64,000 nucleotides of DNA from Deltaproteobacteria bacterium RIFCSPHIGHO2_01_FULL_43_49 (lineage in GTDB: Bacteria > UBA10199 > SPLOWO2-01-44-7). The notes beneath the pieces are model-generated. The model was not told the DNA's origin. It made no database searches and saw only the letters and a program-made list of their open reading frames with translations. The stretch's first letter is position 1. Every line of letters begins with the position of its first letter. Location of the stretch: contig MGRG01000008.1 of assembly GCA_001798075.1 (NCBI GenBank), positions 124,001 to 188,000 of the forward strand. The letters are read 5' to 3'. The position numbers were made by a program, and so were the translations under genes. Positions 2,238 through 60,924 of this stretch are shown in pieces.

Positions 2238-3321
2238 AGGTTGATGTGGCCTTGGGTAGGGAAAAAGGCTGCAACTTCAGATAAAGCAGGATTCCGTTGG
2301 CAATCCAAAGACCCGCAATGGAGAGATAAAGTAGCCATGGCAAAGTACCAATAAGTGCAGCCAATAAAAAGTAAAGTGAGAAACAATCTTTGCGCATTAA
2401 AATTTTCCCATAACGGATGAAGCCCAAAAGGACTGGCGAATAATTGTTTTCAGACAACTTCGATAAATATTCTTTGTCAAAGGTGACTAGGCTTGCTGAA
2501 TGAGTAAATCTTTTTAAAAACTGAATCATCTGCCACAAAAGACCCCCAAGACCACCCAAAAGCAGAGTGGCCATCCCAACGGTAGCTGATTGACCATGGT
2601 TATTTGAAAAAGCAAAAATCAACCCTACAAAAAAACTGATCAAAGCACCATTGTCGCTGATCGAATCAAAATATTGTCCGAATTTGGAAGTAGTAAAATT
2701 AAGTTTGGCCACTTCTCCATCGCAACCATCAAAGATGGAAGCGCATTGAAAAAGTGCAGCCCCCATCAACAACATTTTATAAGAGCCTTGCGCTACAAAA
2801 AAACCGGTTGAAATTCCCAAAGCTAAATTAAGTAGTGTAATCCAATTGGGGTGTATGTTCCATTTGGCAAGCCTCAAACTAATGGGTAACGAAATTCTTT
2901 TATTGAGATATTTCGCAACAGGACCCGGTGTGCTGAGTCGGATGTTTTCAGTTAAAATTTTCTCTGCCTCTTTTATTTGAGAGACATCATCGACAATAAA
3001 TTTAAAAAAGGGCGAAGCCAATTTTTCTTCTACAAGGCAGTTCGTTGGAATGATTTTGTCAGCCTGAATTTCTCTCGTTAAGGTTCCTTTTTCATAAGTG
3101 ACAAGGGAGACGTGAATGCCTCGTTTTTCAAGCTGTGGGGCGATCATTTCATGATAACGAATGGCAAGTCTTGCCGGCAGAAGAACCCCTACGGTTTTAA
3201 TTCCGGCTTTTTTAAGGGCCAAAATGTTTCTCAAAAAGAGGGGAATGCCGACAATCCTTTGGAAAAGGATCCCTTCAGGGGCTTTGCAAAGCTCGTGGGA
3301 GAGCAAGACTTCTACTTTCAT
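2230..3321 (-). CDS. CDP-alcohol phosphatidyltransferase with degenerate N-terminal nucleotidyltransferase-like domain
   Basis: 363 residues. The C-terminal half has about six membrane segments and the CDP-alcohol transferase signature near residues 196-221. All four Asp and the DG pair are present; the usual AR is AK. The N-terminal 130 residues (FQRIVGIPLFLRNILALKKAG...) resemble a nucleotidyltransferase Rossmann fold that has lost the GxGxRL loop. That arrangement echoes bifunctional IPCT/DIPPS enzymes, in which a cytidylyltransferase is fused to di-myo-inositol-phosphate-phosphate synthase. Here an intact nucleotidyltransferase is encoded separately two genes downstream. It is the first gene of the minus-strand operon. 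The acceptor alcohol is unknown. Confidence 0.82.
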   Translation of the reverse strand: MKVEVLLSHELCKAPEGILFQRIVGIPLFLRNILALKKAGIKTVGVLLPARLAIRYHEMIAPQLEKRGIHVSLVTYEKGTLTREIQADKIIPTNCLVEEKLASPFFKFIVDDVSQIKEAEKILTENIRLSTPGPVAKYLNKRISLPISLRLAKWNIHPNWITLLNLALGISTGFFVAQGSYKMLLMGAALFQCASIFDGCDGEVAKLNFTTSKFGQYFDSISDNGALISFFVGLIFAFSNNHGQSATVGMATLLLGGLGGLLWQMIQFLKRFTHSASLVTFDKEYLSKLSENNYSPVLLGFIRYGKILMRKDCFSLYFLLAALIGTLPWLLYLSIAGLWIANGILLYLKLQPFSLPKATSTYE

Positions 3322-3365
3322 GAGGCGGGATTTTAATCATTCCAAAGGGGTATTGTAAAGCTTAA

Positions 3366-3395
3366 TTGACTCTATTAAAAAATCCGTGTTAGGTT
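3366..3395 (+). promoter_or_regulatory. Candidate sigma70-type promoter for the radical SAM gene
   Basis: TTGACT at 3366-3371 is followed 18 bases later by TAGGTT at 3390-3395. The gene starts at 3405 with no Shine-Dalgarno in front of it, so a start at this promoter would give a nearly leaderless message. The 83-base gap also has to hold the promoter of the divergent operon. This is a weak pattern match only. Confidence 0.3.
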
Positions 3396-3404
3396 ACTCG
3401 TCCA

Positions 3405-4388
3405 ATGCTTCAAACGAATGGCAATGGCCATGAAAAAGGGTATAAAAGGCCTCCGAAACTCCGTGGTCTTAGCTATTATTTACGCTGCAGGGTCGAAAAA
3501 AGGCCCTATCTCGTTAATTTAGAGTTTACCAAGCTGTGTAATGCCAAATGCTTTTTTTGCAGTTGTTGGCAGGTAGAATCGCCCAATGAGCTGCAAGATT
3601 ATAGCCCCGTTATCAAGCGTTTTCGTCCCATTGTTTGTTCTGTTTCGGGTGGGGAGCCTCTTTTAAGAAAAAATTATGACGAACTCTTGGCTGGCATCAG
3701 GCCTTGGTGTCACTATCTGATGATTATTACGAATGGGGGTCTTCTCAACGAAGAATCTGCCTCGAGATTGCGTAGCGCTGGGGTTGACCAACTCACCATT
3801 TCTCTCGATTATTTAAGCAAAAAGCATGACGAAGTTCGAAAAATTGAGGGACTTTTTGACAATATCAGCAAAATGGCCCCTCTTTTAGCCTCAAAAGGCT
3901 ACAATATTTGCCTAAACACCATCATTATGGAATCCAATATGGATCAGATTATTCCCATTGCGAAGGCAGCCAAAGAATGGGGTGTTCATGTTTCGTTCAG
4001 CTCTTTTTGCACACTGAAAGCCAATGAAGGGAGCGAGATGGTTCGGAAAGAGAAATTCAAAGATTTGGCAAACTTGATTGAAGAAATCAAAGCATTGAAA
4101 AAACAGAACCAAAACATCAAAAATTCCCATTATTATTTAGATAACATTGCCCCCTATTTCCAAAAGGGGGGAGTGAGTGGTTGCAAGGCAGGGCACACTT
4201 TTATTCAGATCACGCCGGATGGATATGTGCAGCGCTGTTCAGAACTCCCTCGCATGGCGCATTATTCCGAATATTGGCCCACCCAGGTTGACAATACACT
4301 TTGCACCAAGTGTTGGTATTCTTGTCGCGGCGAAACCGAAGCCCCGTTTTTCAAACCACAACGTCTGGTCGATTTATTCCGCGCTTAA
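3405..4388 (+). CDS. Radical SAM enzyme with C-terminal SPASM-like cysteines
   Basis: 327 residues. The CxxxCxxC triad that binds the [4Fe-4S]/SAM cluster is at Cys45, Cys49 and Cys52, followed by SGGEPLL (residues 81-87). Strands such as LTISLDYL complete the TIM-barrel pattern. Further cysteines in the last 70 residues (SGCKAGH, QRCSELP, CTKCWYSC) suggest an auxiliary cluster as in SPASM/twitch proteins, while ITPDGYVQRC resembles the PqqE/HpnH-like class. It is divergent from the lipid-type operon, so it may modify a product or precursor of that pathway. The substrate cannot be told. No clear Shine-Dalgarno precedes the start. Confidence 0.83.
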   Translation: MLQTNGNGHEKGYKRPPKLRGLSYYLRCRVEKRPYLVNLEFTKLCNAKCFFCSCWQVESPNELQDYSPVIKRFRPIVCSVSGGEPLLRKNYDELLAGIRPWCHYLMIITNGGLLNEESASRLRSAGVDQLTISLDYLSKKHDEVRKIEGLFDNISKMAPLLASKGYNICLNTIIMESNMDQIIPIAKAAKEWGVHVSFSSFCTLKANEGSEMVRKEKFKDLANLIEEIKALKKQNQNIKNSHYYLDNIAPYFQKGGVSGCKAGHTFIQITPDGYVQRCSELPRMAHYSEYWPTQVDNTLCTKCWYSCRGETEAPFFKPQRLVDLFRA

Positions 4389-58363: not shown

Positions 58364-59071
58364 TCATTCCTCCAATGGGCCGAAGGTAACTGTCTTTGTG
58401 GTGTTATCAGCAAAAGTCCAGGTCATCGTCACTGTTTTTCCCTCCATATCGTTATCCCATTCAATATCATTGATGACGTTGTTATTCCCCGTTGTTGCTG
58501 TGTAATCAGCCACATCGAGAAGGGTTCCGGAAGGGGCGCCGGCAGGATTGTTATAAATTGTTGTCGATTCAATTCGAATTCTTTCTATTCTTTCTGCACC
58601 GTCGGGGTCCCAACTAAATTGCATTTGGGTAACGGTGATTTGGGTTAGGCATATTTTTCGAAAAGTTATCGATGAAATGTCATCTCCATCATGACTCAAA
58701 TTATAATTACTCGTATCGATCAGCGTGCAATCGGCTTCTGTGGGGCTATCCACGCTGTGTGATCTAACGGCATCGCCCACCGTTCCCGTGACGGTAATTG
58801 TTCTTGCAGCTTGGCTAATGGTAAAAGTCCCTCCCCCAAAGGAGACTCCGGGAGAGGGGACCGCTGGGCTTGCCGCTTCATAGATTTTTCTGACCCCATA
58901 TTCAATGCCTGCCTGGGTTACATAAAAGGCCCTTGTGGCCAGAAAATGCCCAGCCCTGCTTTCTTCGCCCGCTGCGACAAGATAGGTAATGACCCCACCC
59001 ATGGCCACCATGCTCAGTAAGACAAACAAGGCTGCGATCGTTGAAACGCCTTTTTTATTGAAAATTTTCAT
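58364..59071 (-). CDS. PilX/MshP-like minor pilin assembly protein
   Basis: 235 residues from MKIFNKKGVSTIAALFVLLSM (ATG at 59071, AGGA nine bases before). The start resembles MshP/PilX: hydrophobic helix after KKG, then HFLATRAFYVTQAGIEYGVRKI. The mature part is Thr-rich and beta-like. It lacks Glu at +5, as in PilX/GspK-type minor pilins. It overlaps the PilW-like gene by 17 bases. Confidence 0.75.
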   Translation of the reverse strand: MKIFNKKGVSTIAALFVLLSMVAMGGVITYLVAAGEESRAGHFLATRAFYVTQAGIEYGVRKIYEAASPAVPSPGVSFGGGTFTISQAARTITVTGTVGDAVRSHSVDSPTEADCTLIDTSNYNLSHDGDDISSITFRKICLTQITVTQMQFSWDPDGAERIERIRIESTTIYNNPAGAPSGTLLDVADYTATTGNNNVINDIEWDNDMEGKTVTMTWTFADNTTKTVTFGPLEE

Positions 59072-59555
59072 ATAAGTAATTCCTGATAAAAACATCAGTC
59101 CTCAAAGTGAGTGGTGCCGTCTGGCCAGGGGGTAGTGTTGAGAATTCGATCCGCACTCTTCTTGTTTGTTGTCCCGAACTGGTTGTGTTTCCATTGTCCT
59201 TAAATCCTGTGAAGGTTGCTGATGTGACATTACTAAGAAGGAGGTCGGTTCCCCTATATAGGGCCTGGTTTGTAAAATTAAAGTCCGTTGTAATGCTATC
59301 GCTATCCACAAAGGAAACACTGTTGGACTGTATGCTTTGAATATTGGTGCTGCTTTCGTCTCCTACGAGTTCAAGTTCCCTCGACATTCTCTCCATTGCA
59401 TAGCGTGCCGCTTGCAAGTTGGCAGACCTCTCTGAGATATGCGCATAGGAATCGAGTCCTTGTCTTAAAATTAATCCTGCGGAGGCAAAGAGGATTGAAA
59501 CCAAGGCAATGGTTAGAACAATTTCAACCAATGTAAAGCCACCTTCTTTCTTCAT
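59055..59555 (-). CDS. PilW-like minor pilin
   Basis: 166 residues with prepilin signature EGG|FTLVEIVLTIALVSILFASAGLIL and the ERSANLQAARYAMERMSRELELVG segment of the PilW/MshO/GspJ class. The start overlaps the stop of the PilV-like gene as ATGA. It is part of the minor pilin block. Confidence 0.83.
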   Translation of the reverse strand: MKKEGGFTLVEIVLTIALVSILFASAGLILRQGLDSYAHISERSANLQAARYAMERMSRELELVGDESSTNIQSIQSNSVSFVDSDSITTDFNFTNQALYRGTDLLLSNVTSATFTGFKDNGNTTSSGQQTRRVRIEFSTLPPGQTAPLTLRTDVFIRNYLYENFQ

Positions 59556-59980
59556 TCTTCCCCCCAGTCGGTGACCAGTGTGTCAAAAGAAACTATATCC
59601 CCAGCAGGATCTTGAACCGATACCGTCACTTTTGTATATCCCGCTTCATTTCCTTGAGGAGGGGAAGAAAGGTTCGATGGACTTACCGCTGTAATGGTAG
59701 TTGTTCTTGTGTAGCCGGCATAGCCCTCGCTCGCCAATGTTTCGGTGGGGTAATTGCTTTGGATGATGTAGTCATAGGACTGATATTTTTTATCGTGAAT
59801 GATCTGTTCGAGTTTCTCCTGTGCTAATGCAGAGGCAATGAGAGTCTGTTCCATTTCATCAGCCCTTTCAATATTTTGTTGGTAGATGGTCAAGACCCCC
59901 ACAATGCCAAAGGCAAGGATTGTCATTGTTAGTATGGCCTCAATAAGACTAAATCCCTTTTTGTTTTTCAAATTCTTCAT
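59552..59980 (-). CDS. PilV-like minor pilin
   Basis: 142 residues: KKG|FSLIEAILTMTILAFGIVGVLTIYQQ and LIASALAQEKLEQIIHDKK, as in PilV/MshD/GspI-type pilins. It overlaps the FimT-like gene by 4 bases. Confidence 0.83.
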   Translation of the reverse strand: MKNLKNKKGFSLIEAILTMTILAFGIVGVLTIYQQNIERADEMEQTLIASALAQEKLEQIIHDKKYQSYDYIIQSNYPTETLASEGYAGYTRTTTITAVSPSNLSSPPQGNEAGYTKVTVSVQDPAGDIVSFDTLVTDWGEE

Positions 59981-60441
59981 TGGCGTACCACCACCCCTGT
60001 ATTGTCTGTGACCAGCAAACTGACGACTGTTTGACCATTTCCTATTTGGATGATGCTGCCCCCACCCAGAACGGGGCGCCCCAACGGATCAAACTCCACC
60101 TGGGCATTTGTGAGGATATTCACGTTGTCAAACGCATCACTGATATCCTGAGTGAAATCTTGTCTGGTTACCGGATTAGTGGCAGGTGTTGCTGTGCTTC
60201 CCTCATAAATAGTATAGGTACCATTCGCTACAAATTCGATGCCACAATTTGTATCAGTAATGAGAGCCAATTCTCTTGCATAACGCAGGTCTTGTTCCAC
60301 CCTTGCAACAGCCGTTTCGAGATTGAAAGCGGGGATAGATTCCTGCGGGATTAAGGAGGCTACAAGAATTCCCAATGTCGCAATGACCAGGACCACTTCC
60401 AGTAAACTAAACCCACGTTCTTGTAGTCTCCTTGTATAAAT
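59977..60441 (-). CDS. FimT/GspH-like minor pilin, probable ATT start
   Basis: The prepilin signature ERG|FSLLEVVLVIATLGILVASL lies upstream of the first canonical start (GTG at 60396, which would cut through the signature). The frame is open back to 60474 and has no ATG, GTG or TTG before the signature. ATT at 60441 stands eight bases behind a perfect AAGGAGG (60450-60456) and gives a normal ten-residue leader MYTRRLQERG. So the gene likely starts at ATT and makes 154 residues. RVEQDLRYARELALITDTNCGIEF fits FimT/GspH. Confidence 0.7.
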   Translation of the reverse strand: MYTRRLQERGFSLLEVVLVIATLGILVASLIPQESIPAFNLETAVARVEQDLRYARELALITDTNCGIEFVANGTYTIYEGSTATPATNPVTRQDFTQDISDAFDNVNILTNAQVEFDPLGRPVLGGGSIIQIGNGQTVVSLLVTDNTGVVVRQ

Positions 60442-60480
60442 ACAAACCCCCTCCTTTGACGGTGGTTTGTTACATCAAGA

Positions 60481-60924
60481 TTACGGCGCTGTTGCACTTA
60501 TGAATGATCCAGCCGCGTTATCATACGTATATTCGTATGTGGTTGTCCCATCGTCGAAGATGTAGACCTTTGCATCGGCTGCATCTTTGGCCCAAGCACC
60601 ATCAGAGATTCCTGTAGCCAGTACGGCCCCAAAAAACGGGTCTGTAGCACTTGCTGTAGTACCAGCAGCTTCATCAGCTGGCACTGCAAATGTTCCATCG
60701 AGAGAAGATGGATACGCTCCGGGAGCCCCGTTAGCGACCAAGTCATTGGCCCGCCAAAGGGCAATACCGGCTCGCACGGCACCAACCACACCATCCCTGG
60801 ATGCCTGTCTTGCTTGCGTGCTTACGTTGATAAACGAAGGAAGGGCTGCGATCGCCAAAATTCCTAAAATGGAGATCACGAGCACCAGCTCGATCAACGT
60901 GAAGCCTTTCGTTTTTCTTAACAT
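60481..60924 (-). CDS. pilA: Major type IV pilin (PilA/MshA-type)
   Basis: 147 residues: MLRKTKG|FTLIELVLVISILGILAIAALPSF with Glu at +5, then INVSTQARQASRDGVVGAVRAGIALWRAN. The globular half is Ala/Gly/Thr-rich, resembling MSHA-type pilins. GGAGGG precedes the ATG. It is the only full pilin in the cluster, so it should be the main subunit. No cysteine pair is seen. Confidence 0.87.
   Translation of the reverse strand: MLRKTKGFTLIELVLVISILGILAIAALPSFINVSTQARQASRDGVVGAVRAGIALWRANDLVANGAPGAYPSSLDGTFAVPADEAAGTTASATDPFFGAVLATGISDGAWAKDAADAKVYIFDDGTTTYEYTYDNAAGSFISATAP

Follow-up and report, generated by a model that had tools for sequence, protein, structure and literature searches.

Near-cognate start codons and minor-pilin operons

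To our knowledge, few bacterial genes other than infC retain a near-cognate start codon in evolution. According to the excerpted text of one report, infC starts with AUU in E. coli and with ATC in Streptomyces, and Streptomyces sigR has a GTC start that is repressed by IF3 (PMC5472188). Partial texts of two other reports give AUU starts for Borrelia pncA, where the database starts were wrong (PMC13398362), and for Yersinia RcsD-Hpt (PMC10191623), and the excerpt of a further study counts a single switch to AUU among 61,358 reconstructed AUG starts (PMC5622118). Regarding minor pilins, the excerpted V. cholerae study describes overlapping fimT-pilW-pilX-pilV genes and a minor:major pilin ratio that sets pilus dynamics and activity (PMC13249403).

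We analyzed a FimT/GspH-like minor prepilin gene (hereafter fimT) of Deltaproteobacteria bacterium RIFCSPHIGHO2_01_FULL_43_49, located in a window of 64,000 nucleotides (the whole stretch of DNA that was analyzed). This gene shares with infC a near-cognate AUN codon behind a strong Shine-Dalgarno (SD) sequence, as does infC of the same genome (ATA after AAGGAGG), but its product is no translation factor, so that self-feedback would be lacking, and control of fimT by IF3 is our proposal. As far as the excerpt goes, the resemblance to sigR lies in a conserved noncanonical start outside infC, placed first in an operon pair and setting the ratio to the partner; the sigR case differs in its codon, in concerning a sigma factor and in having been established experimentally, whereas ours is a pilin block known from sequence. 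Borrelia pncA and Yersinia RcsD-Hpt also have an AUU start outside infC but are single genes, and in comparison with the parts of those systems described in the excerpts, conservation across genera is seen only for fimT. The V. cholerae operon is similar in that FimT comes first, the overlapping genes are presumed to be translationally coupled and the minor:major ratio matters; the excerpted text mentions no noncanonical start for its fimT. Near-cognate starts are already known outside infC, and the new part of the idea is the gating of a block of minor pilins. Among the titles and abstract openings of the open-access literature, a body that most subscription papers lie outside, we recognized no report of a near-cognate start on a pilin.

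A FimT/GspH-like gene with a putative ATT start

The features of the locus are the following:

60481 to 60924, minus strand: upstream GspG/PilA-like pilin, ATG start behind a strong SD; the fimT ATT follows after 39 nt
60475 to 60477, minus strand: in-frame TGA bounding the fimT leader, read from the frame
60450 to 60456, minus strand: SD sequence AAGGAGG, 8 nt 5' of the ATT; duplex with the anti-SD of -11.7 kcal/mol
60439 to 60441, minus strand: putative ATT start codon, with a leader lacking ATG, GTG and TTG; ATT, ATC or ATG at the homologous place in four relatives
59977 to 60441, minus strand: FimT/GspH-like minor prepilin, 154 codons counted from the ATT, with N_methyl and GspH Pfam matches
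59552 to 59980, minus strand: PilV/GspI-like prepilin; its ATG and the fimT stop share the ATGA at 59980-59977
59055 to 59555, minus strand: PilW/GspJ-like prepilin, with an ATGA overlap with pilV; named from gene order, no family match
58364 to 59071, minus strand: PilX/GspK-like protein, likely start MKIFNKKG; the listed ORF begins at 59095

The sequence-only reading of this window had claimed, leaving the strand unstated, that no ATG, GTG or TTG precedes the prepilin signature, and that an ATT at 60441 follows AAGGAGG at a good spacing. Reading of the frame on the minus strand bore this out. From the stop, the frame runs TGA(60477-60475) TGT AAC AAA CCA CCG TCA AAG GAG GGG GTT TGT ATT(60441-60439) TAT ACA AGG AGA CTA CAA GAA CGT GGG TTT AGT, and none of the three canonical codons occurs between the TGA and the signature GFSLLE. 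As looked for in an infC-type start, the interval between the upstream stop and the conserved N-terminus is free of in-frame ATG, GTG and TTG, and the near-cognate codon is well spaced from a strong SD, here an exact AAGGAGG at 8 nt; the anti-SD ATCACCTCCTT was found at the 16S 3' end of the same genome. The first canonical codon of the frame is the GTG at 60396, which falls within the signature and where the mechanical ORF opens (139 aa); an SD looked for before this GTG was not found. Gene callers limited to ATG, GTG and TTG would begin at this codon and drop the signature. Near-cognate starts are usually hard to recognize from sequence alone; they become recognizable here because the N-terminus is so sharply marked by the prepilin signature.

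The product has both a prepilin signature and a GspH domain, matching PF07963 (N_methyl) with 22.3 bits (cut-off 21.2) and PF12019 (GspH) with 22.7 bits (cut-off 21). The NCBIfam equivalog cut-offs were missed by a wide margin for both GspH (27.7 bits of 80) and ComGD (30 of 70), and the product is therefore named only FimT/GspH-like.

Conservation of the start codon in the family

The family (and order) consists of six genomes. fimT was found in five of them, and no match was found in the sixth (G001, 67% complete). The orthologues of the relatives are stop-free and 53-56% identical to our fimT, and the prepilin signature is kept in all five genes. Comparison of the start codons of relatives, a check that the sequence-only reading had proposed, gave ATT in G002, ATC in G004 and G005, and ATG in G003. 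A canonical start is missing in four of the five orthologues, G003 being the exception, and the claim that fimT starts at ATT is backed by near-cognate ATT or ATC at the homologous position in four genera, with ATG in a fifth species. The start region AAGGAGGnGGTTTGTATY is common to our genome and G004, and in G002 an AAGGAGG likewise lies 8 nt from the start. In G004, G002 and G005, too, the first canonical codons fall within or past the signature. The leader counted from the ATC of G004 is very short (MRG), and PilV of G003 has an equally short one from its ATG.

A tree of the five genomes resolves only the grouping of G003 with G005, which form one genus (g4), and the four near-cognate starts may come from one event. 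Initiation of fimT at AUU/AUC is strongly supported by these comparisons, which indicate a near-cognate start that is inherited and retained across most of the family. Because G003 has an ATG, the near-cognate codon is not indispensable. Separate MAG records of Deltaproteobacteria bacterium correspond to G002 (JAUSII010000026.1), G003 (JAHFSU010000023.1) and G005 (JAUYJH010000150.1).

Rarity of the start among prepilins of the class

To place the family in context, the five-row fimT alignment was used as query against 46 genomes of the class, with matches in 38. The search gave 112 prepilin rows, of which G006:C58 was left out (N-terminus missing) and 111 (95 + 16) were examined; a start was scored as canonical when ATG, GTG or TTG lay within 25 codons before the signature. 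Such a codon was present in 107 of the 111 rows, and the remaining four (our genome, G002, G004 and G005) are all fimT orthologues of this family. In the first 95 rows, the contrast of 4/5 vs. 0/90 gives a Fisher p of 1.6e-6, which is a guide only, the rows being related. All other prepilins recognized by the script in the same five operons have an ATG. A search of wider records for named close relatives gave no match when the protein of our genome was used by itself; the alignment returned 16 loci, three of which are the relatives G002, G003 and G005; among the 13 more distant loci, canonical codons precede the signature in 11, and the signature was not located in L104 and L113.

Rows without ATG amount to 8 of 42 GspH-like pilins vs. 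1 of 53 other prepilins of the class (p 0.009; related rows, divided by a score cut that we set on the 95 rows), a result only suggestive of an enrichment of weak starts among GspH-like pilins of the class. Separately, the pilin at G030:C3:90192 (L097), counted as canonical by our rule, has its nearest canonical codon, a GTG, at 17 codons upstream; four codons before the signature stands an ATC, behind a G-rich stretch, and this is possibly a further near-cognate start.

A probable near-cognate start at infC of the same genome

The sample of our own genome covered 464,000 of 2,225,619 bases (the window and 20 further stretches), in which a simple codon model gave 398 genes. In 16 of them, the first canonical codon is preceded by one of ATT, ATC, ATA and CTG together with an SD of at least 5; most of these have a canonical codon a few codons on or an SD-like match that is weak or badly spaced. 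An exact AAGGAGG combined with a near-cognate codon occurs in only two of the 398 genes, fimT (ATT) and infC (ATA), and in each the next canonical codon is 15 codons away; a scan of 464 kb leaves room for other near-cognate genes in the rest of the genome. This SD-based scan replaced one based on coding score (signal before the first canonical start), which picked out 7 of 367 genes; none of these combined a near-cognate start with an SD of at least 5, and both fimT and infC were missed.

Locus L128, 3632 to 4180, minus strand: infC of the same genome, ATA after AAGGAGG (loci of the relatives: L058, L055 and L056)

Translated from the ATA, the infC product matches TIGR00168 well above its cut-off, as well as both IF3 Pfam domains. 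The near-cognate codon is also ATA in G003 and G005, and ATC in G004, with an ATG four codons later; the G002 copy is cut at a contig end. For infC of G005 and G004, in-frame canonical codons also occur further upstream on the contig, and we read the near-cognate starts of these two genes on account of the SD and the shared N-terminus. These sequences suggest an infC-type start at the IF3 gene of this lineage, a feature shared by fimT, and the analogy with infC drawn in the earlier reading gains strength from an ATA behind the same AAGGAGG.

The minor-pilin block and a proposed mechanism

fimT sits after the major pilin and before the PilV-, PilW- and PilX-like genes; the G002 contig begins just before fimT, so that the upstream gene falls outside it. 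The order fimT, PilV-like, PilW-like, PilX-like is the same in all five genomes, and the genes overlap or abut in each, the layout looked for in a coupled block. In every genome, the distance from the fimT stop to the pilV start is about 25 nt at most, the pilV ATG lying at -4 in our genome, +6 in G004, +9 in G003 and a few nt past the stop in G005, while G002 has a GTG at -4 and a leader-fitting ATG some 11 nt past the stop. As read from the sequences, pilV overlaps pilW, and pilW overlaps pilX, in 5/5 genomes.

Two details of the layout may be added. For the PilX-like gene, whose product had no match in Pfam or NCBIfam and whose name comes from gene order, the listed ORF (from 59095) opens with MFLSGITY, but the probable start is the second ATG, at 59071 (MKIFNKKG), giving a 17-nt overlap with pilW as in the relatives. 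In G004 and G005 (L023, L026), the pilin and fimT genes are further apart than in our genome and G003, and the interval contains DNA that by eye resembles palindromic repeats.

The near-cognate fimT starts have anti-SD duplexes of -11.7, -11.5, -11.3 and -8.5 kcal/mol, vs. -7.1 for the ATG version. Most later starts of the block have weak anti-SD pairing upstream; the exceptions are pilV and pilW of our genome and pilW of G002, which pair well with the anti-SD and may therefore be entered independently. A 5' hairpin around the SD, formed by ACAAACC/GGTTTGT, was considered and rejected as not conserved: among the four orthologues folded, z is -2.38 in our genome but 0.05, 1.64 and -0.33 in G004, G002 (a piece cut by the contig start) and G005.

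We propose that the AUU of fimT is decoded by initiator tRNA as formyl-Met, that the near-perfect SD makes up for the poor start codon, and that the resulting leader, MYTRRLQERG, precedes the processed pilin. Ribosomes would get into the minor-pilin block mainly via fimT, and the near-cognate start would form a weak entry point for fimT-pilV-pilW-pilX, open to discrimination by IF3, and would hold the minor pilins at a low level compared with the major pilin encoded upstream, which has an ATG and a strong SD of its own. From the sequence facts and their conservation we infer that translation begins at AUU, that output is low and sensitive to IF3, and that the block is coupled. Taken as a whole, this model of an AUU start, a strong SD and a weak, IF3-open entry to an overlapping minor-pilin block is in our judgment likely to be correct.

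Because the genes overlap or nearly touch and most later SDs are weak, output of the entire block is probably governed by the fimT start. The earlier reading suggested that the pilin may be made at a fixed low level; if IF3 discriminates at fimT as it does in E. coli, the level would be low but would change with IF3, and the following pilins would probably be affected too, since the genes overlap. A further step, which we put forward tentatively and which may well not hold, is that fimT holds an IF3-tuned valve by which the ratio of minor to major pilins is fixed; pilus number or dynamics would then track the state of the translation machinery. If true, a surface organelle would be under start-codon control of the infC type, and, should the block be gated in the manner proposed, the choice of start codon would be a simple means of keeping pilus-initiating subunits scarce.

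Other explanations of the missing canonical start

The AUU/AUC start could also be real but merely tolerated, a nearly neutral variant, as a strong SD might offset the weak codon and give ordinary fimT output without regulation. In its favor, the fimT SDs are strong, and the third base differs among the orthologues (ATT, ATC, ATG), even within genus g4; against it speak the great rarity of the AUG to AUU switch in the excerpted survey (PMC5622118) and the fact that the only other such gene in our sample is infC, whose codon, in the excerpted literature, is regulatory in E. coli. We consider this explanation unlikely, though worth keeping in mind.

It is very improbable that translation starts at a canonical codon in another frame and then shifts by +1 into the pilin frame. 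Suitable codons do exist, all in the same alternative frame (a TTG 4 nt before the ATT of our genome and before the ATC of G004, and an ATG 13 nt before the ATC of G005), but they are not conserved: G002 has a CTG at that place, the pilin frame of G003 carries its own ATG, the shift in G004 would be needed within two or three codons, and a slippery sequence common to the orthologues was not found. Equally hard to credit is a start at the internal GTG at 60396, giving a protein without the prepilin signature, or a dead gene; this GTG is the first canonical codon, but it has no SD, its use would lose a signature conserved in five orthologues, and three relatives show the same displacement of the first canonical codon. 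Loss of a canonical start through sequencing or assembly error has next to no probability: although the comparison rests on one genome per species, four different genera lack the canonical start at the same place and G002 and G005 were recovered again in separate MAG records, so that an error common to several separate assemblies is not credible. Sequencing error and an upstream frameshift, which the earlier reading had named as the ways in which its ATT start could prove wrong, are thus disfavored by the same feature in separate assemblies.

An insert in the 16S rRNA gene

In our genome, the 16S rRNA gene on contig C14 contains an insert of ~780 bp near its 3' end (L022, about 3005-3795), and the true 16S 3' end, with ATCACCTCCTT, lies at 3824 of the same locus. 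A search of the insert region against Rfam gave no intron match at the gathering score. The insert resembles an intron that carries a homing endonuclease, its product being presumably LAGLIDADG-like (GCLLGDGTL ... IWFMDDGTK).
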